A stretch of DNA of 64,000 bases from Hexactinellida sp. DTS-2022. Lineage: Eukaryota > Porifera > Hexactinellida. A program made the translations under genes and the position numbers. Under the pieces are notes generated by a model. The model saw nothing but the letters and a program-made list of their open reading frames with translations. It searched no databases and was not told the origin of the DNA. Of this stretch, positions 10,706 through 59,900 are shown in pieces. Every line of letters begins with the position of its first letter. Position 1 is the first letter of the stretch. The stretch spans positions 2,480,001 to 2,544,000 of the forward strand of contig JAPNXP010000003.1 in assembly GCA_028753945.1 (NCBI GenBank), given 5' to 3'.

Positions 10706-13700
10706 CTGTGATAGAATGTAATATAAATTAATAAAATCTACAAGGATAAAAATGAACTTTGTACAGAGAAACCGAGGACCGGATTGGGACCGGGCAAGCA
10801 ATTTATGGGGCCAAAAAAATAGCTAACAACAATCTATAAATAAAATAAAATGTGTGAAAACATATAGGGGAATGTCTGTAAGTACTGTTATACAGGACTG
10901 AAATGAATAATCGAAATGTACCGAACGAACATTCATTCGATTTGATGATCAAGCATTAAATCAAATTTAAGACTCAAATACATTGAAAAATTATTGTGTA
11001 TGTTACAATAATTTAATCATACTTACAAAGTGTACAAGACACAAAAATAGATACAAAAAGATAGGAATTTATATTTAAAATCTCTCCAACTACGTGAACA
11101 TATCATATTGTTGTTTAAAAGTAGTAAACGTACGTATATTTGTTCAATCATTTCGAACGAATATTCGGTATAATCGTTTTTTAGCACTACTGTTATGGTA
11201 TAGTTGGTCAAGCCGGACGAAATTTGTCATAATTTCCGTTCACAAACATTAGGTAACCTTCCAAGGAGGGGTGGGGGTTAACCAATGTGTGACAGACCAT
11301 CCTTTTTATATTACTAAATGGGGAAAAAAGCGTGACATGTGGGATGTCTAATTTTCGGGAATTTTGCCTTATGTAACATATGAACGGCCGCTTATAAATA
11401 TACTAAGTTATTAGCACAGATTGATTACACTCCTCACCTGTGCTTCGTTCCTCAATAGGTTCATTAGTTGTTTTTTCTTTCTTAACTTTCTTCGAAACTT
11501 CTTTAGTCTCTTTATGTTGTTCAGTATCCTTAGATTTATCTTTCTCACGAATAACTTTATCTTTAATCTTCTCCTTCTCCTTTGGCTTATCCTTTTCTTT
11601 CTCCTTTGTTTTTTCCTTTGCTTTCTCCTTTGTTTTTTCCTTTTCTCTTGGTTTCTCTTTTTTCTCCTTCTCTCTAACTTTATCCTTTTCCTTCACATTT
11701 TCCCTTTCCTTACCTTTATCTATTCTCTGTGGCGGTGTACTCTGTTTCTCAACAATAATTTCCTGTTTAGTTTTATCTAAAATACCATGAGTGATGCCTA
11801 AACCCGTTAATTCATTAAAATTTTCTATACTAAGAAATGAAAAATTCAAATTTTTTGGATTAATAGAAGGCCACCTTGCTCCGTGTAATGCATTTCGCGC
11901 TTTTTCGCACGATTCGATGTTCTGATACACACAGCAGCACTGCGTCTTGTTCTTGTCGGTCCAGAAATAATGATGCGGCGTATCTATAAAGAAATAAAGT
12001 AACTTATTTAGAGGGATTAATATTTAGCGCCTAAATTTATACCTCTAAATCAAATATTCTAGATCAGAAGGATTATTCAAAATTCAGTAGACTCTCATTA
12101 ATATGAACATCAGGGAGGGAACAATAGAAAATTGTATTAACCAGAGTCACTCATATTTTACTAATAAACAATTTCTTGGAAATATTGATTAAATTCATAT
12201 GTATCGTATTTTTGCTGATAAATTTTAGAGGGTTTGCTTGAAACCATTAAACGAAGATACTAGATATTCAGTCAAAAATAATTATTTTCGTCCAAATGTA
12301 ATTGAACATTCTTTCGGATTCAAAATGAACCATACCGGACATTATCATACATTATGGAATGGACAAAATGCTATCCTGGTACTACGACAAAACGAGCGCG
12401 TTCCTTATTAAATTTCGGACAGAAATGGGAGCGCAAACCAAAATTAGGAACGCCTAATGTTCTAACAGTACATACATACCTGTCCCTAGAATAAGAGGAC
12501 CATACAGATATAGCATGCTCTTCAACTGTTGCTGTGTAAACGGCCGCACAAGATTCTGTATACGGGCAATACGCGTGGCTGCTACATCAGAAGCTAATGG
12601 CGGTACTACTGGCGGAATAGGATATTCACTATGACCTCCATCTATTGTTAATGGCCGCGAGTCCTGTGTGTAGCTAGATAGGGAGCGTTTCAATCCGTTA
12701 GTGCTGTGGAGAGAGGACTGGCTCTCCTGTCTCCTTCTGGTTTCAAGCTCTCTGCGAGCACGCTCCACCTGAATGGGAGAGAATAAGTATAAAGCGTATA
12801 AGTATTATACTCATTATATAATACGTATTAAGCGAGATTGCTTCATGTATTATTAAACATATTCTTATGTGGCAAATAATGTACAATAATCAGTTTAATA
12901 TGAAAGCTAACTTAATTTACAGTTTTAATAATCTTTTCCCTTCATCATGCAATGAAATATCACCTTCTAAATAATTAATAATTTAATTATTTAGTTCTAT
13001 GTTCAATACATAAGTACTAGGAATGGGACCAGATGCGTAGGCACTGGTAGATTTTGGGTGCGGAATTTTCGCACTATAGTATTATTACTTGTGGGCATTT
13101 TTGTGGGCACAAACTTTTAGGGTATGGCGTGTGCCCCTGGCTACGCCTCTGGATGGGACGCAGCTGCATGATTTCTCAACTCCGCATTCATATTCGAACC
13201 GGCGGAGTTTAAAAATCTCACATCTGCCTAACATCCGTCCACAGTGGCTGGAAATGGCAATTTAGGTCGATTAGATATTTAGATGCAATATAGACTATCA
13301 AAATGTATTATCAACTTATAGGATATCGATAGCTAGGATTCGAATGGTCTGATTTATTTTACTGTATGGCTTCAACTGTATTAATTATGACGTCAATGTA
13401 ATTATTGTGTGAAAAATTTTATGAGACAAAATATTTTTAAAAATACAATACAAATAAATAGTCATAAACATGTAGAACACACTGAGGGAAAATTCTGAGA
13501 TCAAATTGTATTTTATATTTATTTATTAATACAATCCATGCAACCTTGGTGGTCGTCATTTGTGCATCGTAGTAACGAGTTTACTAATTGGTCTTGAAGG
13601 GAAAGATCTTTAAATTGTTCGTTTGAGGTGGAACTTAATTTTGGGGCTGTGCTAATTCGATATCTAAGCAATACAGGATCACTCTGAGTTGTTAGCCTGA

Positions 13701-16700
13701 CAAGAACGTCCTTGATGTTGCTTTCAAAAGATAGCTTTCTAGCCAAACTCTCCCTGTATTTTCGCACATACTTGTTTAACGCCTCGAGGCCTTCCTCAGA
13801 GAATTTTTTAAGTCCATATCCATTATTGTATGTAGCGATAAGTTCTGGTGAATGAGCCAACAATTTGTGAAGTGAAGGGGTAATATTGACCCAATTGAAT
13901 TTTAAAACTATTAATTCGTATGTGGTTGTACAAATATCTGCTAACCGGGTTGTATCCACCTTATGAGTACTGTTGAACACTCTTAGAATAGCTGAGAGAT
14001 TATTGCACAGGATTTTGACGATTTCTTTATCTGCTTCACTTATCGTAGACGTAGCCCAGTTAATGAAGTCTCTTTTGTTGGAGAAACAGTTCCTTGCAAC
14101 ATTTCCGGTTGTAGTGGTTCCACCATCACAAGAAGGGAGATCAATTTGCAGCCCTGTTTTCTCGTACAACAAGGATCTGATTCTCTTCATAGAATTTTGA
14201 ATATGTTGAGATGTTGGAGACCATTTTTTTAATCCGGCATCAAGGTGATAAATAAGCAGCATCAGCCACCTGAAAACACATAAATAGCTATGCAGAGGTG
14301 ATGCTGAGAGTATATCCTTGTTCGATGTCGGAGGATGTGTTAAACCAAACCTGGAGTTTGAATCAAGTTTCAAAAATTCGGTAATTTCAACGTCGTTAAA
14401 AATAGATATTGCATCTTGAATTTGTCGATTAATAGGATAGCAAGATCTAATCAATTCAAGGTCTTTAAGTTGCAAGTGAGTTGCTGTACACAACTGACAT
14501 GAAGCACCGCCTGCGCCGCTCAGTATTTTGGACATTTTTCCATCGAACATAGTTCGGCTTATTTTAACATGACAATGTCCATCTGCTAACTCGATCTCAT
14601 CTGTTTCCAAAAGATTCGTAGGAGTATTTATGAATTCTTTCATGAGAAATTCGACGTTTTCATGATTTTCACTCTTCGCTAGTAAAAGTACAGGGCGTGT
14701 GGTGAATGGGGAATTGGGAATTAAGTTAGACCAGATAATATTCTTTGCACAATCCTTAATTGTAAGAGGCTTAAAGGCATACAGAATAAAGCTTTTCGTT
14801 GTGAAATTAGGATCATTATTTAATTGATTATATATTCGATGACTGCCCGAACCATCTAAGCCATCAGCAATCTCAAATTCAATTGGATATTGTTGGGAAT
14901 TTAGTTCCATTGTTTGCAAAATCCTGTCCGCGGTATGTTTGACTATTTCAAAATAAGAATGAGTGACACCAATATTCTGCCCTTCCCTGTGTATAAATTT
15001 AATTTTTGGAGTTAGGGCTATTTGTGATCTAAAAAGAGCAATGTGATCGTAAGATGGAAAGATTATACCTTCTGGTTTGCACAGCTTTCTGATATTCGAA
15101 TATTTTCGTTTCCCAATTTCTAGAATGTCGAGCAAAAATGCAGACTTATCAATAGGCAATTGCTTGTATGAATTGGAGAAGGTGCCTGTTTGTAATATCT
15201 CGGTGCAAACTTTGGATACTTTCCTGTCGTGTACAATGGTAGAAATTAATTTGAGGGCGAGGCTTGCAATGTCTTTCTCCTCTACCCTTTCACGATCAGC
15301 AATATAGCGTATATGTTGCAACAAGACTGTTAATCTGGACCTTTGGGATTCATATTGTAATTCAGTTATATGTTTTCTGGGGACAAATGAACTTTCTTCA
15401 GTAAAAATACCGGCACATTTCAAGCAAACTGTCTTTTTTTCGCAAATGCAAGTTTCGCATAAAGTGGTCGTGATAGAGTCGATAGTTGATTGGCTCACTA
15501 TTGAAAATGACTTGCTTCTTGTAAGGAATTTCTGGTCTCGTTTTGCTACTTCCTCAAATGGTTGGCAATTCCAATCTTCAAGCGTTTGATTTTTGACATT
15601 TGTAGTCCTTGTCAATTTAATTCGCCCAAATTTCCTTTTCAGAGATTGAAAGGTGTCTTCATCAAGATCGAACGTTTCGATATAGTTTCGAGCAGCATTA
15701 GAAGGGTTTTCACTCTTTGTAAGAAGTGTATAAGCCTCATTATTATTCATCTTTTATAATATAATGTAACAAATTGGTATAAAAAGTAACAATATTAATA
15801 TAATAAGAAATCTTGAAATGGGACTTTTTGTCCGATTTTTGTTTTTCGGAACTTTTAGGTGTCTAGAAAGTATGTTCGCGCAATTTCGGGGGCCTAGAAA
15901 GGCTTTATAATTCAAATTAACCCTATAAATATTGTTTAAAACATATAGGCAAGTTCGCACTCCTGTGCCCTTTTAAGATTCTACGGGGGTATATATATCT
16001 ACATTATATTTCAATATAGAATTGTATGGTAATTTTGAAGCAAATGGAATGGAACAGTAATTTCAAATAAAAGGAGCACAACCCGCAAAATATATTTATG
16101 ATGGTTATATCATTAGTTTATTAACACTGTTCGTTCATTCTGTACATATTCTCTAAGCATGAAGAATTGTAATGAGTGAACGAATAGTATGAATTTTGAA
16201 ATCAAATTACAAATCAAAAACCAGCATGACGTCAATTCACCTATAACTCTTGCAAATGTTGATGGATCCAGTTCATTTTTTGAACAGCGAAGTTTGAGAA
16301 TATGGTGAACCTATATACTTAAAAGCATTCAAATCTAAGTAGATAGATTTTTTACCTAATCGACCTATTCCTGCCACTGTGCCGTCCCATCCCTATTAAA
16401 TTAATTTTATCCAATATACGATTAAATATATTTCCAGCATTGTTTCTCCAAGTATTTTGATGTTTGATTACTGATTATTAGTTTATAGATTATTGTTTAG
16501 TATAGATTATATAAAGTTGATTAGTAATTAATACAGTAGTATAGTAGTTTCTTATATGGTACTAAATATAACTACAGAGTACTATTATATAGTATATGCA
16601 AGCCATTTTGTTTGAGCTCCGCATCCGCATACGCTTTCGCGGATGCAAAGAAAAAAATTCCGCATCAGTATCTGAATCCCAGGTTATACCTTACTTACAG

Positions 16701-19700
16701 TAAAATCATACCAAAGTGGGTCAGGTTGTACAATACTTATATAAGTATTGTACAACTTCACCCACTTTGGTATGATTAATGCTGCGTTATGGCATGACAT
16801 TACCACTAACCTCGATTCTCTGTATCTCCCTTTCCCTCTTCTTATCCTCCCATTCCCGCTCTGGATCAATATCTCTCGAGGTGAACACAACAGAGCTCGA
16901 GCTAGAGAGCGTGTTCTTAATCTCTTGGTACATACGCCGATGTCTCTGTGTAGATTCTCTGTCGCGTGATATTGACATATTGAGACCTATACAATACATA
17001 CAATCATGAAATACCATATATTTTACTATTCCAAAGATCGTGATCATGCAGTGTAAGTCAGAAAAAAAACGTAATAAAAGACAATGGATAAACCCTGAAC
17101 TTTTGAATCCAGCCTTACATAAGAATATGAACTAAATAATATTTCTCTAAATCCATTTATAATATGATAAGCGATAATTTCATTATATAATTATTTATCC
17201 CTAGGTGGTCCCAGGAAAGTGAAAGTGAAACTGAAAGTTAATTCAGTTTCAATTGAAAGTGAAAATGGGGTATTTTCTATTTATACCTTGGACCCCAAGT
17301 CATCCCCAGGATAACGATATAACTTATTAAAATTAACCATGATTACCAAATGGAAATACTTGTATGAATAGAGCTCAAGCTGAGTAGAGCAGTCTTTAGT
17401 ATGTAAGGCACTGAAAAGGTTTTTTATCAGTTCCTAAATTGAGTATAATGAAAGCAGCCAGGCTTTTTTAGCTATTAGAAATAACTGAGCTCTATATACG
17501 GTAAGTACAGTAGACTCCGGTTAATAAGAGTCAATGGTTAAATGGGTCTCCCGCTTAATTGGCTCAAACTACCTTCGCCAAAATTTACCCAATTAAGCGG
17601 AGTCGACTGCATTCTCTTCCCATTTTTAATTATAATCTGTAACTCAATCCTATTCAAAATTCCTCACCCCCTATATAACAGAACATATAAATAACCCACC
17701 TTAAAAATTACCTGATCTAGAAGTCTTTTTAATTTTACGGTCTTCAAATTCGCGAGATTTATTGGCTGCAAATGAGTTTTTAGTTAGAATCTCTCTCAAG
17801 TCTTTATGCGTGTGATGCTCTAAATGTTTCGAAATTCCGCGTTTTTTATCACGAGATGACTCATCGAGTTTTCTCGAGCTTCTATGTGAAGTGGAGTGTG
17901 ACTTGTCTTTATTAATTTCTCGTTGTTTGTTTTCTTTGTCAGAGAGTTCAGCGATTTGTTCGTTATTTCCATTTTCTTTTGTATCAAAAGATGGACCTTG
18001 TTCTCCGACTAAAAATAAATAACTAACTAACAAACTTTTAAAAATTTTGCTAGATAATTAATAATTTAGACTTATAAACTAAACTTGTACGCAGAGGGTC
18101 CGACATAGGCGTCAAGTTTTGGAATATACAATCAAAGATGGGGGGGCCCACTGGTAGGTTTGCTAAATGTTTCCAGATTTGTTTCTTCAGAAACAAAATC
18201 ATCAAAAGGATCACTTTCATATAAAAATTAAATCCACCGAAAGGTCCGGGAGGTCGCTTCCAGTGACCCCCCGCCCCCCCAAAACCCCCAAACTTGGCGC
18301 CTATGGGGTCCGAATAGATCGGAATCCTTATCCATATTCAGTTCATAATCCATCTCATCTAGATTTAAAATTTAAAATCCGTTCCAAAATCCGTAAATTA
18401 CGGATTTGATGGATTTGGAAACCGTCAGATCCATCCGGACCCTATCCTCTGTCCATAGCTGATTTTCAAATCCGTTCGGATTTCACAATCCATTCGAAAT
18501 TCCAAAATCCATACGATTTCAAAAACCATACGGAATTGCATATACATACCAGGGCCGACGGAAGTGGTCAGGCCATGGCCTGACCACTCTTACGTCACTA
18601 CTTAGGCCAGCAAGCCATGGCCTGACCACTTCATAACTGCTTCCGCCGGCCTGCATACAGATTTCTAGATCCAATTCATCCAAATGGTTGGTTAGAAGTA
18701 TTTCTAGTAAGTATTATATGTACATAGTCTACTCCGCTTAATTGGGAGTCGGGACACGTTTGTTTCAGAGATCTTGTCCCAATTAACCAAAAATTTTGCA
18801 TAATGTAGTGATCTAGAGCAATTTACAATAATTTCAGGTTTCAACCTGTTATAACAATTCCTCCATTACCTGCGAACCCTTGAGGCTTCTCACACCCATA
18901 GTATGAGCCCTAAAATCTTGTGGACCGTTGGAACTATCAGTAAACCGCAAGGTCATAATCTCTGGTAAATTACGATTTTACGGAAATCAATAAGACAATA
19001 AACCCTATTTAAATATATTGTTATACCTTTATCAGAATTGATCAAGATTATTAGAGTTCGTTCTATCAATATGAATTTTCTATTGAGCGAGTACCAATTT
19101 TAACCCAAATTGTTTAGGATTGTCCCGATTAACCGAAATTTTTTAGTATTTGCTCTTATGGAAAAGATTTGGTTATTGGGGAGTTGTCCCAACAGGGTTC
19201 TCGCAAGGATTTTTCGTTGTAAGGGTACATGAGTGTGAGATAATACTTAATGTCAATGATTTAATGAAACCTTCAAATAATAATATTGACTCAAAGGGTA
19301 CATGCCCACACACAACATGTGAATAAAGGGTACAATAGCTTTCAAGAAGGGCATGTACCTTTTGATAGAGGCCTAGCGAGAACACTGTGTCCCAATTAGG
19401 CGGAGTCTACTGTATAATAAATTTAGAAGGTACTGCTGTATGACGGTTTACTTAATTTTATTACCAAAACAATAATTAACCATGGATACTTTCTATCCAT
19501 GACGGTTTACTTACCGTCTTTGCAATGGCTTCACACTTTATACTTCCTATTACACATCCAGCACTTATAAGGATTCACATCTCAAATTCTAATTGGAAAA
19601 TGTCATTATGGCCCAAAATATCTATTGCTAATATGGAAATTATTACTGTGCATGGCCTACTTAATATACGGCTAGATATGTCACCGAGAAGGCCATAAAA

Positions 19701-27044: not shown

Positions 27045-28697
27045 CTACTGTATTTCTCGGTCAATTATCCGATTCGGGCAACCAATTATCCGATTCGGGC
27101 AACCAATTATCCGATTGGGTCAACCAATTATCCGATTCGGGCAACCAATTATCCGATTGGGTCAACCAATTATCCGATTCGGGCAACCAATTATCCGATT
27201 GGGTCAACCAATTATCCGATCGGAATTACTTTTGATTTTCATTGGTTTATCTATTTAGGATACTGGGTTGATATGTATAAAACAAAGTAATACGAAATAA
27301 ATATATTCCTAAATATTCAATATTCATCATAAATTATGGCTTCGAGTTCATACGATGCAGGACAACACTCTGCCACATCATCTACAGTTGCTATTTCACG
27401 AGGTAGGAGAGCAATTTCAAATGAATTACGGCAAAGACTTATCGGTGCCCACGAGTCGGGAGTAACCTATAAACAGATGACCAGATTGTTTGGCGTTAAG
27501 AAGGATACCGCTTACAGAATTTGTAGCACCAGACAATATTCTACCAAACTTCGCGGTGGTCCAAGAGGAAAAAAGTTGGACGAGGATTCGAAAAGTCTTC
27601 TCTTAATTTCCATTGAAGCCCGTCCCGATATCACTCTTGGCGAGATGAGAAATAAACTAATTCTCGAACGAGGGATAACTGTTTCGATATCTACAATCGC
27701 TCGGTGTCTTGAAGGATGCTTAATTACAGTAAAAAAACTTGAATTACTTCCGAGTGTACGTAATTCACCGGCAAACAAAGATTGTAGAAGAACTCATGCT
27801 CTATGGTTGCAAGAACAGCATGAAATAGGAGCAAGATTCTGTTACGTTGACGAGTGTGGATTTGGCTTATATACCGCTCGGAATCGTGGTCGATCAATTC
27901 AAGGATTGCCAGCTCGAAGGGTTGCTGACAATCAACGAACTCCCCATGTCACTCTGATATGTGCTATCTGTCCAGGTGTTGGACTCGTCCATTCAAAGAT
28001 CCTATTCGGAGGTGCTAAACAAACACATTTTGATCAATTTATAAGTGAATTATTCCATCTCTCGTTTGGTTTGGCATTGGAACCAAGTAGCTCAGTTGAC
28101 ACGGCATTTATCGTACTTGACAACGCTCCTTGTCACCGTGGGATTGAAAATAGACTTGAAGCTTCTATCCCTTCACACATCGAATTGAAACGCCTCCCTC
28201 CATACAGTTGCGAGTTGAATCCGATTGAGTTGTGCTTCCAAAGTCTAAAATCCTATATAAAACGAACTCTCAGCGCTCAAGGACCAATTATACCAATTGA
28301 GGGCCAAACTATGGTAAGTGCAAGGAGAGATAAACTATTGCAATTATGCCCAAATGCTTTGGCTCAAATTACTCCAGCAACTTGCCTGAATTCGTTCTAC
28401 CATGTATTGACAGCAACAGTTCCGAGAGCAATACGCCTTGAAAATCTCTAGTAGCTACATTATCCAATATATATATCCAATAAATCACTTTATCCTATAT
28501 TAATTAACTGCATTCATTATCACTATTATATCAAATATATCACTATAATTGTTGATTGCTTGAATCGGATAATTGGTTGCTCGAATCGGATAATTGGTTG
28601 CCCGAATCGGATAATTGGTTGACCCAATCGGATAATTGGTTGCCCGAATCGGATAATTGGTTGCCCGAATCGGATAATTGACCGAGAAATACAGTAG
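27045..28697 (+). mobile_element. Tc1/mariner-superfamily element (DD35E), complete
   Basis: A 1653-bp element is flanked by TA on both sides (27043-27044 and 28698-28699). The terminal inverted repeats start CTACTGTATTTCTCGGTCAA. Inside each end is a tandem array of a 21-bp unit CCAATTATCCGATTCGGGCAA, eight units at the left (27061-27225) and six at the right (28558-28680) in inverted orientation. Units alternate between GATTCGGGC and GATTGGGTC forms. The spacing of 21 bp equals two DNA turns. The central gene is intact, so the element may be recently active. Confidence 0.93.
27336..28451 (+). CDS. Tc1/mariner-type transposase, intact
   Basis: This is an uninterrupted 371-residue frame. The N-terminus has a helix-turn-helix (ELRQRLIGAHESGVTYKQM, then FGVKKDTAYRICSTRQ) and a GGPRGKKL AT-hook-like hinge. 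The catalytic domain shows FCYVDECGFG (first Asp), FIVLDNAPCHRG (second Asp) and PPYSCELNPIE (Glu). I count 35 residues between the second Asp and the Glu, hence DD35E, against 34 in Tc1 and mariner. The ATG at 27336 follows the left iteron array by about 110 bp. It cuts and pastes the flanking element at TA sites in the nucleus. The HTH probably reads the 21-bp iterons, which is inference. Confidence 0.92.
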   Translation: MASSSYDAGQHSATSSTVAISRGRRAISNELRQRLIGAHESGVTYKQMTRLFGVKKDTAYRICSTRQYSTKLRGGPRGKKLDEDSKSLLLISIEARPDITLGEMRNKLILERGITVSISTIARCLEGCLITVKKLELLPSVRNSPANKDCRRTHALWLQEQHEIGARFCYVDECGFGLYTARNRGRSIQGLPARRVADNQRTPHVTLICAICPGVGLVHSKILFGGAKQTHFDQFISELFHLSFGLALEPSSSVDTAFIVLDNAPCHRGIENRLEASIPSHIELKRLPPYSCELNPIELCFQSLKSYIKRTLSAQGPIIPIEGQTMVSARRDKLLQLCPNALAQITPATCLNSFYHVLTATVPRAIRLENL

Positions 28698-36842: not shown

Positions 36843-38330
36843 ATGGCAGCCGGCTTCGGTAACTTGAATATACCTGTTGCAGTGTATACCCGCACATGGT
36901 GTGTGCGGGCACACACTGGTGTATATCCGCACACAATCAATGAATTAGTCTGGCTAAAATATGTTGTTAGATGATGAAAATAAAACTCCTACACTTGTGA
37001 AAGGGACTATAATGGATTAAAATGTGCAGAAAAGAAAAGCAACAATAAAACACCAAACCTTCCAACGTAATAATTTGCAATAATAATAAATAACTAATCT
37101 CGCTAATAAACTTATATTAATAAAACCAACGTCATATAGTGTGTGCGGATATACACCAGTGTGTGCCCGCACACACCATGTGCGGGTATACACTGCAACA
37201 TACCTCCCCTTCTCAAGGACCAAACAATTACCGAGTGGGAACATTTCTTCAGAGCTTCCGTAGCCTCTCTATTGACTCAGGAAGGAGGGGAGAAGTTTGC
37301 GATTAGTATTTTACCTGCATACGTTTGTAGAAGACCCGCAGAACGTGAAGTTGTACGTGAAGTAGTTAAAGAAGCGAAGGTACTTGACGAAGCTTTTGAA
37401 ACACTCCGAACATTGGACCCTCCAATTGATCGGACGCACGCTATGGTATCACTCTGCCGCCAAGACTGGGAACCAGGCGTATTGGTTGACGATTACTTCT
37501 ATCAACTAAAAGTGGATGGCGATCACGCATATGCTCCTTTGAGCATGGTGTGTACTCTCCTAGTTGCTCAGTTGCCTACTCCAGTTCAAGGATCCTTGAA
37601 GGATTGGCTGGCAACAAGGGAAGAAGTTGATTCAAAACAAGCCCGCGCGTTTATTGAATATGTGCGACATACTCTTACCGAAAAAGGAATTGCTTTGGAC
37701 AAGGGAAATCGAGACTTTTCACGAGTATGTCAAGTACATGACGAAGGGCCAGTGCATGGAGTGAATGAAAAAGGGCTCGCAAGTTTGCCAAGTGAGGTAC
37801 ATGAAGATCACAGAGACATCGGGAAAACTATCGGGCAAGGTACAAACCCTCCCAATGAACGTGTAAATACAGTCCGATATCAAGGTGGAAGAAAATGGAA
37901 TAGACGATATCCACGAGGAACTACGAACTCCGGGGCCTGGACAAACCGTAACCCTGGCTGTTTCATATGTGGGACTGAAGGACATTTTGTTCGAGGTTGC
38001 CCCGACCAATTTTGTCAGCATTGTGGCAAAAGAGGTCACGACCGCCGTGACTGCAAGTCTAGAAATAAAGTTAATTTGGTTAACTTGAAAGAACAGTCCC
38101 AGGAAGTTAGTGAGTCAGCAGTAGTGGTTCGAATTAAATTGAATAATTCTCCTTTCGTTGCGATGCTTGATTCAGGTGCACAGCCTAGTATCGTGGATAA
38201 AGGAACACTGTCATCTCTTGGGGTGAACTTTGCTGCTTGTCCGAGTCGCATTCATGGTGTGGGGGCAACTCCTGTTGGGACTTTGGGAAAAGCTCGATTA
38301 GTGGTTGATATTGGCCGGAAATCTCTATAA
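36843..38330 (+). pseudogene. Retrotransposon gag with start of protease, interrupted by a MITE
   Basis: The natural start appears to be the ATG at 36843, 24 bp after the left LTR. The frame is cut at 36876 by the MITE and resumes in frame after 37205. The rest encodes a capsid-like region, two CCHC zinc knuckles (CFICGTEGHFVRGC and CQHCGKRGHDRRDC, about 37960-38055) and the protease motif MLDSGAQPSIVD (about 38163-38200). It ends artificially at the inversion breakpoint. A later in-frame start within the MITE would yield a chimeric protein, which is probably meaningless. Confidence 0.85.
36876..37199. mobile_element. 324-bp MITE with 60-bp perfect inverted ends inside gag
   Basis: The ends start GTTGCAGTGTATACCCGCAC and are perfectly inverted for 60 bp. 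They are flanked by a 6-bp duplication ATACCT (36870-36875 and 37200-37205). Each arm contains the hairpin CCCGCACA-TGTGCGGG and GTGTGTGC runs. It has no coding capacity. It splits the gag gene after its eleventh codon. Confidence 0.92.
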
Positions 38331-39440
38331 TAGTTGACTAACCCTAAGAAAGATCGCAGGCGTTTAACATCAGTAGGGCGGGCTTGTTGTTCAATTTTTC
38401 CTACAATTGAAGGTAATGGCCGGATTCCGTCTCCGCTCAAAAGATGACCAAGGAATTCGATTCTTCTATAACCAAAGTGACATTTATCACTTCTCAGTTG
38501 CAGGTTCGCTTTTCTGTAACAGTCAAGGGTTAACTGCAGATCTCGATGATGATCACTGAAAGTACGAGAGTGAGTCAGTGTGTCGTCTATATACGGTAAT
38601 GAGCAGGGAACTTGCTTTAAAGCTTGGTCTATCAAGCGCAGATAAGTCGATGGTGCATTACATAAGCCAAAAGGCATTACCAGAAACTCGTATTGACCTC
38701 TGGGAGTGACAAATGCAGTTTTTTCTATGTCATTTCTGTTGATCGGTATACTCCAATATGCACTGGCACCATCCAATGTAGAGTAAAATTGACTACTTCC
38801 TAGTCTGTCTAGGATGTCACGTATATCTGGCAAAGGGTAGGAATCTTTCTTTGTGCAATCATTGAGCGCCCGAAAATCAACAACGAAACGTTTTGCACCG
38901 TCCTTTTTCTGCACTAAGATAACTCTACTCGCCCAGGGAGAATTTGATTTCTGAATTATACCATTCGTTAGCATCTGATCCAATTGCCTTTCAATCTCCT
39001 GCTCAGTCCATGGACCTACTCTATTATACTTAGCTTTGACAGGTCTTGACCTTCCTGTTTCGATAATATGCTCAGTCATATGTGTAGTCTTAGGGCTTTT
39101 GGGGTTCACTGCAAATACATCCGAGTACTCCATCAATAATCTGAGAATAGATTGGTGTTGTGTGGGATCCAATTCTGTGTTAATGTCCCAAGCCTGACCA
39201 GGCGACTCACAAGGCTCTTCGATACCAACACTGTTAACAACTTTCGCGCGTGATAAAAGTTCCCCTCCATGCAATGAAGCCTCCGTGGGAAGCCAAATGT
39301 GACCGAGACGAACCCTGTAATTTGCCCAATCAAATTCTGTTGAATTGAATTGCGATAAAAAATCTCTCCCCAAAATTATGGTCGATTCGTATGAATCCAG
39401 AATCAGGAATTCGTGGGTAATTGTATTCTTCCTTCCCAAT
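38312..39440 (-). pseudogene. Inverted pol segment: end of protease and reverse transcriptase
   Basis: This block of about 1.1 kb reads on the minus strand although the flanking gag and integrase read on the plus strand. It begins with the end of the protease (STIILGRDFLSQF), then shows RT motifs FVVDFRALND, VMPFGLCNAPSTY and the catalytic LPYIDDTLTH, and ends at SFLGLVNYYRDF. The breakpoints fall at a short inverted match, ATATTGG near 38308 and CCAATAT near 39440. The block itself is open throughout. It cannot be translated with the rest. Confidence 0.9.
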
Positions 39441-41347
39441 ATGGCGGAAACAGCAGTGCCACTGTATAGGCTTACACAAAAGGGGGTTCAGTGGAAATGG
39501 AACCAAGAATGCGAAAACAGTTACCAAGTATTGTCAAAGGCACTTACGAACAATCCGATTACTCTGGGGTATCCAGATTGGAAAGGCCATTATTATCTCG
39601 AAGTGGATGCATCAGGTTCTGCGGTGGGAGGGGTGTTGGCACAGAAAGACAATGAAGGCAGATTGCGTCCCATTTCCTTCTTTTCTTGTCAACTAAATGA
39701 GTCCCAGAAACGTTATAGTGCCGGTGAACGAGAAGCGTGGGCCATAGTGGCTGCCACACGTAAATGGCGAAAATATTTAGATGCTGCTCCAGGTATAACC
39801 ATTCTCTCTGATCACAACCCATCGGTTTGGATGAGACACCAAGGGACCCGAGGGGTAAATTCGCGCGGTGGCTAATAGAGTTAGAGGGGTTGTGTTACGA
39901 GATTCAATTCAGGAAGGGATCAGAAAACCTCGTAGCAGACTATTTAAGCCGAAGTGCAACTACTTATGATTATGATTTAAACAATGAGGATGAACATTTC
40001 GAACGGAAGGTGTACCAAATTAGTGAGAGTGATAAAGTATCTGATTTTACCAGAAATTTGTGTGAGGAGCAGAAAAATGACCTGGTGATATCAAAAGCGA
40101 TAAGTGACATTGATGAGAGTGGCTGCATCCAATCCGGGAAATTTAAACGCTATTCCCAGATGAAGAATCGTTCTGGGTTGCTGTATAGGGGTAGAAGAAT
40201 CGTGGTTCCTAAATCTTGTCGGGAGGTGGTTCTTTGCAACGTTCATAGTGTGGCACATTCAGGAGTTCAAAGAACGTACCAAGATTTTCGGGATAGGTTC
40301 TTCTGGAGGGGAATGTTTTTGGACACTCAGAATTTTTGCAAATGTTGCGAAGTCTGTTTAAGGAATAAGCGATCTTATGATAGGAAAGAGCCCCTCAAAC
40401 CTTTTAAGTTACCCTACAATTTTCCACGCGCTCTTATCGCCATGGATATAGCATATTTACCCTGGACTTCTCAAGGCTACCGATATGTGTTGATTATTGT
40501 TGATCTATTTTCTAAATATATGGAGGCTATCCCTATGAAAAATCAGGAGGCCTCGACTATAGCGGAAGCGTTGAAATATGGTTGGTTTCACAGGTACGGC
40601 TATCCCTTGGCTCTTCTCTCCGATCAATGCCAGAACGTAGATGGCGTGGTCATAAGGGGTGTTTGCTCAAAGTATGGAATTCAAAAGTTGCTCAAGTGCT
40701 TACCATCCTGAAGGTGATGGGGAAGCTGAGAGGACTATTCAAACCTTCAAGCAGTGTATGCGTTGCTTACTTGAGGAAAGGAATATTTCAAGCACTGACT
40801 GGCCTAGATTAACTCAAGAATTAGCGTTCATCTGCAATTCGCAGGTTAATGCTAGCACTAGATGCACTCCACAGGAGATAATGTTTGGAGAAAAATTGAC
40901 ACAATCATCCCTCAAACAGATTACACTACCTTTGATGATCCTGCTTCTTATAGTGAAGCTGTTAGTCCTAAGAACCTTGAACTTCATGAGAGAGTAGCAG
41001 ATAATATCGAACTTGCACAAGAGAAAATGAAAACCGCATACGATCAGAAAACAAGATCTAGTAATATCTCACCGGGGGACTGGGTTCTGGTAAGAGACGA
41101 AACAAGAAGTAGCTCGCTTTCCCCACTATACTTGGGGCCTTGGTTAGTTGTGGAAAGATTAGGAGTTAACCTTAATCTGGTAGACCCTAGTTCAGAGAGG
41201 AAGAAGATAGCGCATCTAAACCGGTGTAAATTATCACCGCGGAACAGAGAATTGATAGGGGAATTTAGTTTAACGACTAGCTATAACGGGGGATCCGAGA
41301 CAGAGAAATTGATACAGAAAATATGGGAACAGAAGATTCACTATTGA
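39441..41347 (+). pseudogene. RNase H and integrase of the LTR retrotransposon, frameshifted
   Basis: It starts at the right breakpoint with MAETAVPLYRLTQKG, then RNase H (YYLEVDASGSAVGGVL, LNESQKRYSAGEREAWAI, ILSDHNPSVW), the HHCC finger (HSVAHSGVQRTY, CKCCEVC), and integrase acids at MDIAYL, LLSDQ and GEAERTIQTFK. A GPWLVVERL-type C-terminal motif follows near 41130. Reading-frame breaks lie near 39835, 40695 and 40890, so the polyprotein is not made intact. Confidence 0.88.
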
Positions 41348-41825: not shown

Positions 41826-44349
41826 TAAGCTGTGATATTTGTCTATCTGATGTGTCCCTCCCGAACCGAGGGCATCACAAACACATTAAAACATATGGAG
41901 TTTTTGAGCGCATACAAATAGACCTTACACAAATAACTTTTGAGAAGGAAGACATCCTCGCTAGGAAAGGTTTTCTTTGGGTTTTGAATGTAATTGATTG
42001 TTTTTCTAAATTCGCTTGGGCTTATCCCCACAAAACCAAAGAAACCAAACCAATTTGTGAGATTCTTTGTAAATTGTTCTATAAAGAAGGCATACCCCTA
42101 ATAATGCAAAGTGATAATGGGGGGGAGTTTGTTTCTAATATCATCAAGGACGTTATGCCTAAAATTGGCATTAAATTAATAAATGGTTCACCTTATACAC
42201 CAACTACTCAAGGACAAGTTGAGAGATTCAATCAAACTTTCAAAAGTATATTTAAAAAGAAAATTCAAATTGAATTGTCAATAGGTAACAACTCCAGAGT
42301 AGAAAATTGGTCCGAAGAGTTGCTTCCAGAAATTATGAGTACCTACATTCATAGAAAACATAGATCCTTATCTAGAACTCCTTGGGAAGTATATTATTCC
42401 CGATCTGCACCTCATTTAAGATATTCTACCCCTAAATTAGTATCGTTTAGACCTGTTGATGTGGAATTATCCTCACATCCAGATGATGAAGTTTTTGCAT
42501 CTGGGAATGATAATCACTTAATGGATGACATAAGAGCACATGCTGAATTACATTAAAAAATTGTAATACAAACTTTGAACCAAACTCGTAAGATTCAAGT
42601 TGAGAATCATCGAAAAATTTCTAAAGGAAATAAGTCAAGTCAAAATATTGTCGTAGGAATGACAGGATATATAAAGAATCCAAATGCCAAAATAAAACAT
42701 AAAAAGAGAAACCTTCACGAGCCCTTGAATGTTAAAGTACAAATTACCAAAATTCATTCTACTTCCAATCAGTGTTATATTGAATACCAAAACCTTCAGG
42801 GAGAATTAATACATGCATGGGTGCACAGTGAAGAGATATTACCCAATTACAATAGAAAATTTGAATCACAGGACAGTATTGAGAAAAATATTATACCAAC
42901 ATTCACACAATTCAATCGAATTGAATATAAAAAGTTACTTAGCAAGTTTGAACAATTAACTGCAGAAAAGTGGTGCAATACAAGAAAGATGGTTGCAGGA
43001 TTAATTAAAGATTCATACCTCAGTGAAAAAAATGATTTCAAAAATTTAGATGAAAGATACAGCAATAATAACAGACAAGGAGAGCATGATATGAAATTCT
43101 ATAGAGAGATTTTGTACGAGGTCTATGATGAACAATTTATCAACTTTTGTGCAGAAACTTTAAATCTTTGGAAGGAACAAATTTCTGAACCAAGTCTTAC
43201 TAAACTTGAATATCTAGCCAACAAAGGATTTAGAGAATTCCTGGGAGTATTGCAAATTTGGTATCGTGACAGACAGTATGACCAATCTGGCGAATTTTTT
43301 GAGATAATTTTACAAAGTTGGATCTTTCAAAAGATCACCGCTGTGATGAATGCATATTTTCAAAGGATTGCCAGCATGAATGTTGTTTCCAGTTATTGAA
43401 GTTTCATTATGAAAATCGTATGTTTCTGGTCAAAGAATTGTGTAATCAAGGTGGTGAAGACAAGTTTGCATTGGAATTGGATCCTTGTAATAGTTTGGGA
43501 AAACGTACAAGAAAACAATTTGAATTTGAAAACATCGAAGATTTATCCGCTACCACTTTGGAAAGTTATAGTATTCTGAAGAAAGGATGTGACAAGCAAA
43601 TACATTTGAATTGCGATGAATTGGTTGTATCAATTCCTTTACAATCAATTAAAAGTAAGAAAATGCATTTGAATTCAAGTGATTCGATTGAGTTTCCATA
43701 TCTACCTGAAAACCGCAATGAAGATTTGATAATGCCTTTATCTGATATTGAATATTCTAAGGTAAAGAAAAATGCTCTAATATCTAAAAGTAAGAAAGTC
43801 AGACCAAGCACTCGAATTACTCCCCCTTCAGGTGTAACCGAAAAGCTGAGGCCTAGCCCTGATGATTTCGTTTATCAACCTGTAAATAGTAAATGGCGAG
43901 CTATGAAATGTAAAGAAGTATTAGACAACCTTAACTTTCCATTGAACATAGATATTAATGATATAGATTCACGTTTTGATTTGAGGAAATCCATTGTAAA
44001 AGGCAAGATAAATATCATTCCGGATGGTAATTGCCTCTTCAGAGCACTGAGTTGGTGGTTATCAGGGAAGGAAGACATACACCAATTAGTTAGACAGAAA
44101 TTAATAAATTTTATGAGAAGATCTCCCTTGAGTGAAAGGTATATTGTGGTCAAAACTGATCAAAAGGTAGAAGAATATATAACCCAAAAGAAAATGGAAA
44201 TGCCAACCATTTGGGGAGGTGATGTGGAATTATTTTGCTCTGCAATTTGGCTAGAAACTGACATTTATGTTTTAATAGATAATCAATGGCAAAAATTTTC
44301 ACATAAAGGTTTCAATTCAAAAAGACGAGGAACAATTCAAGTACAATGA
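41826..44349 (+). pseudogene. Ginger transposase: integrase catalytic domain plus OTU cysteine protease
   Basis: The open reading begins around 41826 with SCDIC, the tail of an HHCC finger. The integrase core shows IQIDLTQI, MQSDNGGEFVSN and TQGQVERFNQTFKS (D, D, E). An in-frame TAA at 42554-42556 and a frameshift near 43320 split the frame into three pieces. Downstream are a Lys-rich region, a Cys cluster CDECIFSKDCQHECC (about 43346), and an OTU domain with IIPDGNCLFRALSWW (about 44015-44060; Cys nucleophile) and a late His in KFSHKGF (about 44303). Integrase plus OTU is the domain set reported for Ginger1. The N-terminal finger is lost or lies in another exon. The gene ends inside the inverted-repeat end of the element. 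Confidence 0.82.
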
Positions 44350-48636: not shown

Positions 48637-51600
48637 CACAGTGGTTTATTTGGGACATTCATAGGGAGTGGGGGTTTCCCGAGCAGATAGGTCATTGAAT
48701 TGTATTATTTACATATGGGTTATCCCTACCTAGAAATCGATTAATGAACTCACAATACTTGTATGGCTCCAGACTTTTGAGTTGTGACGTCATTTAATTT
48801 TTACACCAATTATTTAATTCTCTCTTTTCATAAATATTTTTTATATTACACTAAGTAAGAAAATAAATACATAAAAAAATTCCAAATAACTAAATTGCAA
48901 CTAATATGAGCTACACTAGGGCATCATACTAATTTAAATATTAAGATTTTGGAGCATGAGAGAGTTAACTAGTTTATCCTGTTCTAAAGTTACCACTTGG
49001 TTACCTTTACATTTCATATTCCGAATATGCCCTATTCTACCACAATGCTTACACACTAGGGCTCTTCGGTAACTTGAGAGGACGGGGTCACTCTGACTAA
49101 GACGGGTAAATACATCTTTGATATTGGACGTAAAAGAATTTTTTCGAGAGAGATGTTCTCTAAACCGTCGAATTAGCTTATTACAAGCCTCTACCGCTTC
49201 TTCTGAATATTCTTTTAACCCGTAGCCATCATTACAGTCCCGTATCAATTCAGTACAGTGGGCTAGTAGCTTGTGTAGAGAAGGTGTTATGTTGGCCCAA
49301 GGAAAAGCGGTGATAATGAGTTCGTAAGTTTCCTTGGCTAGAGTTTCCAATTTCTCAGTATCAATTTCGTCGCTGCTGTTAAATATCCTTAAAATTACAG
49401 AGAGATTATTTTGAATGAGAATTAATTCATCTCTAGTTTCGACTGGAACAAGTGTAGTTGCATGGAATATAAAATTGTTCTTGTTTAAAAAACATTGTCT
49501 AGCGACATTTCCGGTTGAAGTTGTTCCACCATCACTTGAGGGCTGATCAATCCTAAAACCCGTTTTTTCTTAAAGAAATTCACTACAAAATTTTCTTGCA
49601 GTGACAATCTGTTTTGATGTAGGTGACCATATCAATCTTCCAGCTTGTAAATGATATATTAATAGCATATACCATCGAAAGACACATGTATAACTATGAA
49701 GCGGTGAAGCTGCCATAATGTTTATCTCCGAGATTGGTTCATGGGTTATTCCTAACCTTTGTTTGGATGGAAGGCTAAGATACTCATCCTTGTCAACGTA
49801 TTCGAAAAGTTCTTTCGCGTCAGAAATATGTCTGTTAATCGGAAAACCAGCTCTAATCATTTCAATGTCTTTAATGTCTTTGATGCTTGCCGTACATAAT
49901 TGACAGTGCGCACCTCCAGCCCCACTTAAAATCCCACACATTTTTCCATCAAGCATACTACGAATGATCTTTACATGAACGTAACCTTGTGGGAACTGTA
50001 AACCCAATTGTTCAATTGTGTTCACTTCTGGGTTGATAATCTTTTCCATGATAAACTTGACGTTAAGGATGGACTCCTTCTGGGCCGTTAATCGAACAGG
50101 CCTAACTCCAAATTGCGAATTCGGGATGTTATTATCCACACTTGATTGTTTTCTGAATCCATAATGGAGAGTAGTTTAAACGCGAACAAGATGTAGTTTT
50201 TTGTACTTGGTGTTGGGTTTAATTCATATTGGTTGTAAATTTGATGACACCCTGAGCCATCAAGGCCGTCGGCAATTTGATAAGTTAAAAGAAATTGGGA
50301 ATCAGATAGAGGAGGAATTGTTTCGAACAAGCGTGTCAAACTATGGTGTAGGATGCGTTTATAAGATACTGCAATACCAATCGCTACATTCATCTCATTA
50401 TGAACGAATACTAACTCATTAGTTAGGTTAACGTTATGTCGATATTGTGCGAGTTTAGAATAGGATGGGAATACGATGTTTTCGGATTTACAAAGGCGCT
50501 TAAAGTTGGTGTATTTTCGCCTTCCTATTTCAAGGAGGTCAAGCAAGAATGCTGACTTATCAATAGGCATGGAATTAATTTCACTTACAAATGACCCCTT
50601 TGCTATAATTTGTTTGCAAACACTAGAAGTATTTACATCTCTAGAAAGATTAGATATGAGCATTAGAGCGTAGGTGGCAATTATTTTCGGGTCAACTTCT
50701 TCTTTGGTCGCGAAAGAGTCGATTAAATTTAAAAGCGGATTAAGCCTTGCTCGTAAGGCTTTTAAGGTTAATTGAGATAAAGGCTTTATTGTTTCCATGG
50801 ATAGATCAGACTCAACGATTACTTTATCCGCCATAATTCGCTTCTTTGTGGGTTCCGCTGATGGAATATTAAAAAAAGTTTTGTTTTCCCACTCTTCCAA
50901 TTTTTTTAGCTTTCTCGAAGAATCTCTGGTAGTTTTAAGGATATTAAATTTATGTCGAATTGGTTCATATTCATTCTCTTCGATTTGGAATTCTTGCATA
51001 AATGCCAGAACAGCAACACGTATTGACTCCTTAGTTGAGAGATGATCCCAAGCGTCTCGATTATTCATTTCGAAACAGAGGAAAGCTATTTACGTAATAC
51101 AAGTATACAATTGATTTGTATGTAATATTTATAGCGGGCATTTGTATACAGTAATATTTCCATTTGCGCGGGGTTGCGCGGGGCTGGAAAGTGGTTAAAA
51201 TTCAAGCTATATAGTTAAACTTTATATAAAAACAGGGCTACTAATACGACACGACACGACACGACAGTTTTCGCAATACCAATAAAGGAATTTGACAGTT
51301 CGGACACTTCCAGCTAATCATATTTTGCAATGATAATTATACTAAAGGACAATCAATTATATAAAGAGTATTCAATAGTTTTAGGATTATTTAAACTATA
51401 ATTAAACACTGTGAAAGTATTAGCACTATATGATAGAAACCTACTGAGATACACGAGCATGAACTGATGAATAATTATTAACCTCAAAAATTTTTCAATT
51501 ATAATTAGCCATTCATCCATAGACACTGCATCATATTTCTAATTTTACTTGGAATTTTTAACTGTAAAAATAGTTACCCAGGTTCTCGATTATGCTGAAC

Positions 51601-51672
51601 CCGATAAAAACGTTTTTGAGGAGATCAGAATAGGTAAAAAATTGTCCCACTCCCTGTCAATAAACCACTGTG
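48637..51672 (-). mobile_element. RAG1-like (Transib superfamily) transposon, copy 2
   Basis: A 3036-bp element with CACAGTG at both ends (48637-48643; inverse 51666-51672). It is flanked by a perfect 5-bp duplication CGTAT (48632-48636 and 51673-51677). The heptamer is followed by GTTTATT at both ends. The block AGGGAGTGGG begins 19 bp after the heptamer at the left end (48663) but 10 bp after it at the right end. It is a different subfamily from the copy at 13240, with divergent protein and terminal sequences. The transposase frame is broken. Confidence 0.93.
48934..51068 (-). pseudogene. RAG1-like transposase, frameshifted
   Basis: The start ATG is at 51068 (MNNRDAW). Three overlapping pieces (51068-50088, 50139-49570 and about 49565-48934) cover the length seen in copy 1, with frame breaks near 50135 and 49567. 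Motifs are kept: PIDKSAFLLDLLEIGRRKY, IADGLDGSGCH (first Asp), SMLDGKM (second Asp), GGAHCQLC (zinc Cys), TSTGNVARQCF, PSLHKLLAH (zinc His) and SEEAVEACNKLIRRFRE (Glu). The C-terminus ends with a CKHCGRIGHIRNMKC zinc-knuckle-like cluster that copy 1 lacks in this form. Presumed inactive. Confidence 0.88.
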
Positions 51673-56989: not shown

Positions 56990-59900
56990 CATAGCCTACT
57001 ATACATAAGGCCTCACAGTAAAATATGAAATCAGGACCAGGGATGCGGTCGCCGCCGGGAAAGAAAATTATGGTATTGCAATTTTAGATCAAATATAGTG
57101 ACTTACTGCTTAAAAACAGCTAACTCAATAACTAGCAACTGTAATAAAGTAATACGTATACTCTCATTATACCATTAATCTTGTTACTTTGTGAGTTTGA
57201 ATACAGTCACATAACATACACAATACAGAAACTACTAGAAAACCTCTATTTACTCTGGTAGATATAGTTACTTCACATAAGACAACTAACTCGTATCTAA
57301 ATATCAGGAATCGAACTTTTTCAATTTCCGCTTTTCTAATCCCTTTAAAGTAAGGCTCGAATTGTAATTCTTGACAAGATTTGCAATTTGACAATTTGCT
57401 TCACTCCGAACGAGACTTGATAGAATGGTTGAACCTTTCACATTACAAGAAGGACAAGTAGTTCTCCAACCTTCAAATACCACTATCAAGACCAGTTAGG
57501 GAGCCAAAAGCAAGTGTTACTAAAATCTTTCTAGTTTGACCTTCTATCAACAGGGACATAAGTTCACTATTACATTGGATTATAGTGAGAATCTTCCAAA
57601 CAATAATTAAAGATTCCAATGCAAGCTCTGAAGGATACTTTAGACCACCACGATCAGAAAGCTGCAGTAGTTGGTACCGGAATTCGAAGGATTCATCTAC
57701 TAGAATATCTTTGTCGATAATTAAAAGATCTCGGCATATTAAGCACGGTGAAGAATGCTTAAGGTATTGGTAGGCAGCATACCCAGCAATAAAAGCTAGT
57801 GACTGGAGTGTTGGGGTATCGCACTCAATGGCTGATACATCTGATAGAGCATCAAGAAAAGGATCAATGTCAATTTCTGTATCTGTATGTACGCTATAAA
57901 TGGGAGAGAAAGACTGAATAAATTCCTCCATAGAAATCTGGCTGGATGGTTGAGTGTTGGTATTAGAAAATAGAGTTAATAGATTGGAGATCTTCAAACG
58001 ACGTTCAGCTTCTAAAATTTGAAGGTACGAAACATGGTAATTTGATCCAGACATCATCCGATAAAGTCCGAAATGGTGCTCTAGTGGTTCTGTCTGTAAG
58101 AAACGTGTTAAAATGTAAGCATATCCACACTGTCCAGTTAGATAATTAACTATTTGAGGGAGTACAATGCACGCGTGTCTTAAGCTTGTAAAAGTTTGCT
58201 TGCTCAATTTGCCATCTTTCAAAGAGTGTGATTCCCAAGTCTCTAGCCAATTTACTATCCTGGTTAAAAAGATAAAGCGTTCGTCATTAACTGTGAAAGG
58301 GCGACATGAAGAATCATTTAAACGAATATGCTTATATGGAACATTTACATTAAACATGTTCCATAACGTGAGTAGAATTTTGACGAAACTAGAGGTGTTT
58401 GTTTTCAACTCACTGCAACGTTGATCATTTTGGAGAGCTAGAGCAGCAATCGTGGACTCATGGATTACTTTCAGGACTAATTTGACATTTTGGCGTTCCA
58501 ATACAGAAGGATAACATAATTTAAATGTCAACCGCGGGGCTAATTTTGCAAGACTCTCCTTCTCTGAGCTATAAAGGGCGCGTACATCTTGGAAAGAAGC
58601 GCAGCACACCTTTAAAGGAAATGAACAATAATCAAATCCAATATCGTCAAGATCGGGGTAGAAAAAACAATTATAACTGGACTTCAGATTTAGCCAATTG
58701 TTTCGTACAGATTTCAAAATATGGACGAAATCGAAAGTGAGATACAGAGGCCTGTTAGGAACACAAGGATGAGGTACACATGTTTCAAGCTTACCAACAG
58801 GAGAGAATAGTTTGAATAACTTTACGTTAAGAGGATAGTTATCTGTTGAGATTACATCCACACCTAAACCACAAGTTTCGATATCTTTAATACAAGCGAG
58901 TTTGATGGGGAATATCTTCTCAGCGGAAAGAGAGGCACATGGTAATAGACGAACTATAGTAGACCATTTTTTTCTGGAGACTTGATACCATAATAGCGAA
59001 TACAGTCTTTATTGGATCTTCTGGGCTTAGACTAGAACCATATATATTGCCTCCTTTATATGTGACATCAGATTTACGTGAATTTCGTCCATTTGCATAA
59101 CGATAGTTTCTCAGCTTCAGTGAAAGAATTTGTCGCTTGCTTGAGGAAAGGAAAGAATTCACACTCAAGTCCGAATGAAGAATACAACTTCTCCAAAGTG
59201 TTGACATGAGGCAGAGATAGACAAGCCATTTGTTGAAGATACTTATAACATGCTAGTGAAATTAAATGTGCTTTAAGTGCCATAACCTGTGTGAGGATGT
59301 TGTACCTCCGCCTGTTTTTGGGTACAATACTGTTTTCAAGCTGACATTGGATGAATTGAAGCCTGGATATTTCGGGGGAATCAGTTACTCTAATTCACCA
59401 TTAGAAGAAAGTACTTTGTTAATGAGTAGTTGGATATATATTATATATTGTCCTTCGCTAAAGATAAAGTCTCATTAACGGCCTTTGAAACAGATTCAGT
59501 GGACAGAACAGGACGAGGGGATATAGAAATCTCACAGAGAATTGATTCAAGAGAATTGATTGGAATTGGTAAAATTTCTCCATTACGATAAGCTCTAACT
59601 GACAAATCGAAGGACACTAATATATGGGTGTTGACAATGATATTGTGTTCTGTCAGTAGAGGTAGCATATAAATTAGACTATGATCATCTGGGTACCATA
59701 AAGACCATGTTTTAGGTAGGGAAAGCAAAGGTAACTTAGCTTGGATATCCTGGAAACAATTGATCTGATATTTCTCTTTCTCTTCGCTCTCAGATGCCAG
59801 GCTAAGTGTTAATAGGGAAATGGGCTCTGTAGGGGTATTGTACTAATGGGAATGACATAAATAAATAACAAGATGGATTATTTAGCTGTAGAGCGTAATA

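Follow-up and report, generated by a model that had tools for sequence, protein, structure and literature searches.

In V(D)J recombination, RAG1 with RAG2 acts on two kinds of recombination signal sequence (12-RSS and 23-RSS), in which a CACAGTG heptamer and a nonamer, ACAAAAACC, stand 12 or 23 bp apart, an offset of 11 bp. The origin of this 12/23 rule is debated, and published views conflict on whether asymmetry needs RAG2 or is ancestral: it has been held to be recognised only with RAG2 (PMC8355894), invertebrate RAG-like elements have been described as relatively insensitive to it (PMC7204232), and it has been regarded as ancestral (PMC8289069, PMC9435367); PMC8355894, PMC7204232 and PMC8289069 are cited throughout from excerpts. 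Among Transib transposons, asymmetric ends were reported in 2005 by Kapitonov and Jurka, as told in PMC8355894, which gives spacings of 12/23 plus or minus 1 bp to a nonamer-like second element for Transib5 of Drosophila melanogaster and Transib2/N1/N2/N3 of Anopheles gambiae. Tao et al. (2022) described asymmetric ends in all 'Subgroup I' Transibs, which have a C-terminal CTT1, and proposed a bacterial origin (PMC9435367). Paired unequal ends as such are already published for Transibs, and the idea is not new. What is new in the glass-sponge Transibs described here is a near-constant offset over many families, the genome-wide counts, the co-variation of the two ends within an element, a link to the nonamer-binding domain (NBD), and coordinates that match those of AanRAGL, an element of the alga Aureococcus anophagefferens. 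Our starting point is an element at positions 13240-16381 of a 64,000-nucleotide stretch (the window) of Hexactinellida sp. DTS-2022 (assembly GCA_028753945.1, contig JAPNXP010000003.1, positions 2,480,001 to 2,544,000, forward strand), in which we located the following features.

13240..16381, minus strand: Transib element of family A, 3142 bp, delimited by reading the sequence and by a 98% identical sister copy with its own 5-bp duplication
13235..13239, no strand: target-site duplication CCGTC, adjoining the downstream (long) end
16382..16386, no strand: target-site duplication CCGTC, adjoining the upstream (short) end
13240..13246, plus strand: heptamer CACAGTG of the long end, on the side downstream of the transposase
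16375..16381, minus strand: short-end heptamer CACAGTG, on the side upstream of the transposase (CACTGTG on the forward strand)
13263..13274, plus strand: shared box TAGGTCGATTAG of the long end; counted from the heptamer's first base it starts at +23, which leaves 16 bp between heptamer and box
16356..16367, minus strand: shared box TAGGTCGATTAG of the short end, starting at +14, 7 bp after the heptamer
13302..13327, plus strand: long-end distal motif, family consensus AAATGTATTATT-AC-TATAGGTTATCG at +62 to +87
13519..15750, minus strand: transposase gene, a single open frame of 743 amino acids, with an NBD-like domain (residues 120-187), a RAG1-core-like part (195-703) and acidic residues D299, D403 and E656

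This element is a Transib transposon with a RAG1-type transposase. A preliminary description had read it as RAG1-like, with CACAGTG at both ends, a perfect CCGTC duplication and a shared block 16 bp from the downstream heptamer and 7 bp from the upstream one; direct reading agrees on every point, and since the transposase frame is on the minus strand, the end at 13240 lies downstream of it and that at 16381 upstream, in line with the earlier assignment. The CAC-type heptamers and the 5-bp duplication are those of Transib ends. The sister copy (contig C1:14219346-14222481) has the same 16/7 spacing and a different perfect duplication, ATACT, so the limits of the element are real transposition limits. 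A chance origin of the shared box and its offset was rejected by shuffling: when the long end was shuffled 300 times, a shared string of at least 12 bases never appeared, and a comparison of 18 bases over 21 shifts gave P = 0.012 for the window copy and P = 0.002 for its sister.

We then compared ends across the genome (112 Mb, 18 contigs), using 21 element copies in 14 Transib end-families grouped by end sequence; 16 of the 21 copies have a perfect 5-bp duplication. Ends in loci L009-L043 were located by a heptamer with an AATAGG-like core 13-44 bases on, or by a heptamer with a 5-bp duplication, and one further scan covered only the surroundings of two expected positions. Eleven extra loci were picked by transposase match alone. 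Six of these gave both ends (families M, N, P, H and Q and a second copy of D), and five gave one end, the other being absent or outside the short stretch fetched. In a blind test, 18 bases of the short end were compared with the long end at 21 shifts and P was taken from shuffles. The best shift was 9 in ten families (A, B, C, Cb, E, F, K, M, N, P), 10 in D and Q, 3 in G and 14 in H, with P < 0.05 in ten of the 14 (M, N, G and Q lay above). For G, an AATAGG-like core placed by eye at 30 and 20 gives an offset of 10. The final offsets are thus 9 in ten families, 10 in three (one of them by eye), 14 in one and 0 in none. In H, about 4 bp have been lost from the short end by comparison with related ends in L029 and L040, which stand at +21, and the transposase frame contains one stop; uninterrupted frames were found in A, B, M, N, P and Q. 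The long end lies downstream of the transposase gene in 12 of the 13 families that have one. The exception is family F (L035, 1800-5577), in which the gene is inverted relative to the ends and the distal motif stays with the long end. Family K is represented in the window itself, by an element in which the box sequence is altered relative to family A and the 9-bp offset is kept:

48637..51672, minus strand: Transib element of family K, with duplication CGTAT and box AGGGAGTGGG at +26 and +17, offset 9
48955..51068, minus strand: family K transposase gene, matched in two frames that break near 50134; the two matches show 36% and 53% identity to the family A transposase

A 1.15-kb transposase-less Transib (L036, 2055-3200) is inserted in the transposase gene of another Transib, and L024, L025 and L026, on different contigs, have identical element ends with the same duplication, CATTT, which suggests that a larger stretch was duplicated; we entered them as a single copy.

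The same two distances stand out in pattern counts over the whole genome. CACAGTG-N(1-23)-AATAG has 1107 matches, compared with 180 for a reversed-pattern control, and the matches concentrate at N14 (330, control 18) and N23 (316, control 6). The neighbouring classes N13 (85, control 6) and N22 (34, control 8) and the intermediate class N18 (21, control 6) are smaller. All spacings other than N14 and N23, these three included and the rest not counted singly, sum to 461 matches versus 156 in the control, so the two peaks rise from an elevated floor. The first 100 places listed all lie on C1 and include 35 N14 and 26 N23 sites. Pairing was assessed on 100 N14 and 83 N23 listed sites from contigs C1-C4 and the beginning of C5: of 22 pairs of facing neighbours within 4.5 kb, 21 are mixed 14/23 and one is 14/14, and shuffling the labels gave a mean of 11.0 mixed pairs and reached 21 in 0 of 10000 trials. 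The 14/14 pair (C1:6027513-6031158) was rejected, as its far end has a nearer 24-type partner at C1:6029998, 1161 bp off, with which it forms a 24/14 pair. When classes 13, 14, 22, 23 and 24 were all considered on C1, 20 of 22 facing neighbours within 4.5 kb were long/short and two were 24/24; 18 of the 20 long/short pairs span 982-2147 bp, too short for a whole transposase gene. The 24-bp pattern, ACAGTG-N24-AATAG with the first C omitted, served only for this pairing; it has 690 matches (control 60), and most of those that lie on C1 are unpaired, so another abundant repeat probably contributes to it. Copies with equal spacing at both ends, which would have spoken against a distance rule, were found in 0 of the 14 families, and among the listed sites facing ends mostly pair long with short. 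Judged from the sequences, unequal spacing of the box at the two ends is a rule in these families.

The box itself varies between families, and it varies at both ends together. Core positions were set family by family, by hand in D, G, H and Q. In the nine bases that precede the core, the two ends of a single element match at 6.14 of 9 positions and ends from different elements at 3.32 of 9, a difference reached in 0 of 20000 permutations. Within the core the agreement is 5.0 of 6 versus 4.5 of 6 (158 of 20000), and in the nine bases after the core it is 2.5 versus 2.4 of 9 (7840 of 20000). An earlier test on six families had found the true pairing to be the single best of 720. Because the excess agreement lies before and in the core, the shared part is, on this measure, a box of about 15 bp that ends with the core and differs between families. 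Its two copies in an element change in concert, which is what reading of both ends by a single protein domain would predict.

A candidate for such a domain is present in the transposase. Residues 120-187 match the NBD of RAG1 in sequence, and also in their predicted fold, so this NBD-like domain could read the box. Residues 195-703 are homologous to the RAG1 core with its DDE triad, as in Transibs: D299, D403 and E656 align with positions of RAG1 and HzTransib that we take to be catalytic. No RAG2-like gene was found in the family A element, where the other open reading frames of at least 60 amino acids reach only 65-76 amino acids (spliced genes were not modelled); without a second long frame, the element does not have the RAG1L and RAG2L gene pair of RAGL transposons. 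Profile scores were 159.9 bits for HzTransib and 68.4 bits for amphioxus RAG1L, in a comparison that contained no Subgroup I sequence. Among 65 homologues of the transposase, all 13 that carry a name come from the glass sponge Oopsacas minuta. We found no relatives outside sponges in viral contigs or in the genome contigs with alignment A1, and saw no bacterial Transib; a pattern scan of the viral contigs gave 65 matches, which were taken as chance and left unused.

We consider the best explanation to be that these are cut-and-paste Transibs whose two ends form a matched long/short pair favoured jointly by a transposase dimer, and we give this a probability of about 60%. Each end has CACAGTG as its cleavage heptamer, together with a box of about 15 bp that is specific to the family. 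The core of this box, often AATAGG, follows the heptamer by 14 bp at the end upstream of the transposase and by 23 bp at the other. The dimer would cut at the heptamers through its RAG1-like DDE core, bind the boxes through its RAG1-type NBDs, and favour one near and one far box, as RAG does with a 12-RSS and a 23-RSS, here without RAG2 and with an offset of 9 instead of 11. Cleavage may go so far as to require one end of each type.

The main rival to such a distance rule is that a distal motif, rather than distance, marks the long end. The two ends would then carry different sets of binding sites, of which the 9-bp difference is only a part; the distal motif would be what the transposase or a host factor recognises at the long end, and pairs of like ends would still be active, only less so. 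The two ends do differ beyond their spacing: the motif is strongly conserved, out to about +87, in the long-end representatives of all 14 families, and it is also found in the transposase-less copies D and G and in the flipped F, whereas position profiles of the short end contain no motif of comparable strength (in the registered profiles, rows D and H of the long end and G, Q and H of the short end were shifted by hand, and raw profiles were kept alongside). Its occurrence in copies without a transposase and in F led us to reject a 3' untranslated signal, and the motif is more likely a cis signal than part of a transcript. Different binding sites alone, however, leave unexplained why the same family-specific box stands at both ends at two nearly fixed distances, and why those distances are unchanged where the box sequence has changed (family K). 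The second copy of family D, D2, has no distal motif. We regard this account as rather unlikely, while ranking it first among the alternatives.

It is less probable still that the offset is functionless, having been fixed in one ancestor with too little time since to change. The families are paralogues of one genome and the copies are not independent events, as such inertia would have it; yet the transposases of B, K, M, N, P and Q share only 36-55% identity with that of the family A element, spacers and boxes have been replaced, and the distances have shifted by at most 1 bp except at the short end of H. Moreover, the N13 and N22 variants do exist and are rarer than N14 and N23. Finally, the true second signal could be a nonamer of the classic A-rich Transib/RSS kind, AAAAAATC, which at the short end follows the heptamer by 21 bp, with the AATAGG box as mere spacer and a degenerate long end. 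Several short ends do have an A-rich stretch beyond the box (AAAAAATC for family A, AAAAAATT for family B), near the symmetric 20-22 bp spacing of some Transibs in the excerpted PMC8355894. Position by position the stretch is poorly conserved, families D and E have a T-rich one instead, and beyond the core the two ends show no co-variation, all of which makes this the most improbable of the three. The matched long/short pair accordingly remains our preferred explanation.

Several described systems come close to the sponge elements. HzTransib (Transib superfamily, structures 6pqn to 6pr5) has a RAG1-core-type transposase, CAC heptamer ends, 5-bp duplications and no RAG2, as here; its ends are symmetric as cited in PMC8289069, and its chain leaves no room for an NBD, since residue 21 already aligns opposite residue 195 of the sponge protein, which has an NBD-like domain and asymmetric ends. 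The asymmetric fly and mosquito Transibs, as excerpted from PMC8355894, share the unequal spacing between heptamer and second element, at 12/23 to a nonamer-like element rather than 14/23 to an AATAGG-type box with offset 9. Subgroup I, which we compared by description only, also has asymmetric ends, but the CTT1 zinc knuckle (Cx2Cx3GHx4C in PMC7204232) was not found at the C-terminus of the window transposase. A pattern of this kind, C..C...GH.{4,6}C, like the CTT of RAG1L proteins, occurs in 12 of the 34 sequences of alignment A1, of which 23 extend to the C-terminus, and the strict x4 form occurs in 2. AanRAGL has 13-bp and 10-bp elements with 4 or 13 bp between them (PMC9435367), from which we calculate that its second element starts at +17/+26, an offset of 9; in the offset-9 families the final ten bases of the sponge box start at these positions too, although AanRAGL has RAG2L and its own sequences, CACACCCAAACCT and CCTCAA[C/T]A[C/T]G. 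ProtoRAG of amphioxus also has asymmetric ends, preferred in assays on ProtoRAG, but with 27/31 spacing, an offset of 4, and RAG2L (PMC8289069). With the V(D)J signals the sponge ends share the CACAGTG heptamer, a second element at two distances and an enzyme with a RAG1-type NBD, but not the nonamer at 12 and 23 bp, its place being taken by the AATAGG-type box at 14 and 23 bp. The preliminary proposal of an element-level version of the paired-signal rule is supported in part: the offset is a property of the element type, but it is 9 rather than 11, and the box is not an RSS nonamer.

As for earlier reports, sponges are not mentioned in the main text of PMC9435367, and a term search of the main texts of two glass-sponge genome papers (Oopsacas minuta and Aphrocallistes vastus) found neither the word Transib nor RAG1. 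We found no paper on glass-sponge Transib ends or on a constant 9-bp offset among the titles and abstract beginnings listed, with subscription papers, figures and supplements lying outside this search.

The window contains other repetitive and coding features. A near-perfect long inverted repeat, TACCAAAGTGGG ... CCCACTTTGGTA, at 16705-16773, about 320 bp past the family A element, is possibly a small palindromic mobile element. A Tc1/mariner-like transposase (DDE_3, with a weak Sleeping Beauty helix-turn-helix) lies at 27336-28451, and retroelement pieces at 37143-40711 comprise a zinc knuckle, a weak aspartyl protease, an integrase and, on the other strand, a reverse transcriptase. An OTU-like cysteine protease domain is found in an open reading frame at 43318-44349. 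The frame at 57473-58861 has relatives named P-element transposase; among the best 120 of 157, 10 of the 11 named come from Oopsacas minuta and one from a beetle.

These elements offer a natural experiment on the debated origin of the 12/23 rule: at least 14 Transib end-families coexist in one genome, each of them has a long and a short end, and in the window's element no RAG2 was seen. Direct comparison is possible between families whose boxes differ and between variants whose spacing differs by one base. If unlike ends are required, the rule would be independent of RAG2. As the long/short pairing recurs in related elements of the genome, the paired-signal rule of the antibody system may have an older, RAG2-free counterpart. 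It is possible, although we hold it only tentatively and as somewhat doubtful, that sponge Transibs keep an ancestral paired-signal rule, with an offset of 9, +17/+26 from the cut, read by an NBD dimer without RAG2, and that the vertebrate 12/23 arrangement (+19/+30) is a stretched version of it. Were that so, the paired-signal rule would be older than RAG2 and carried by the transposase itself.

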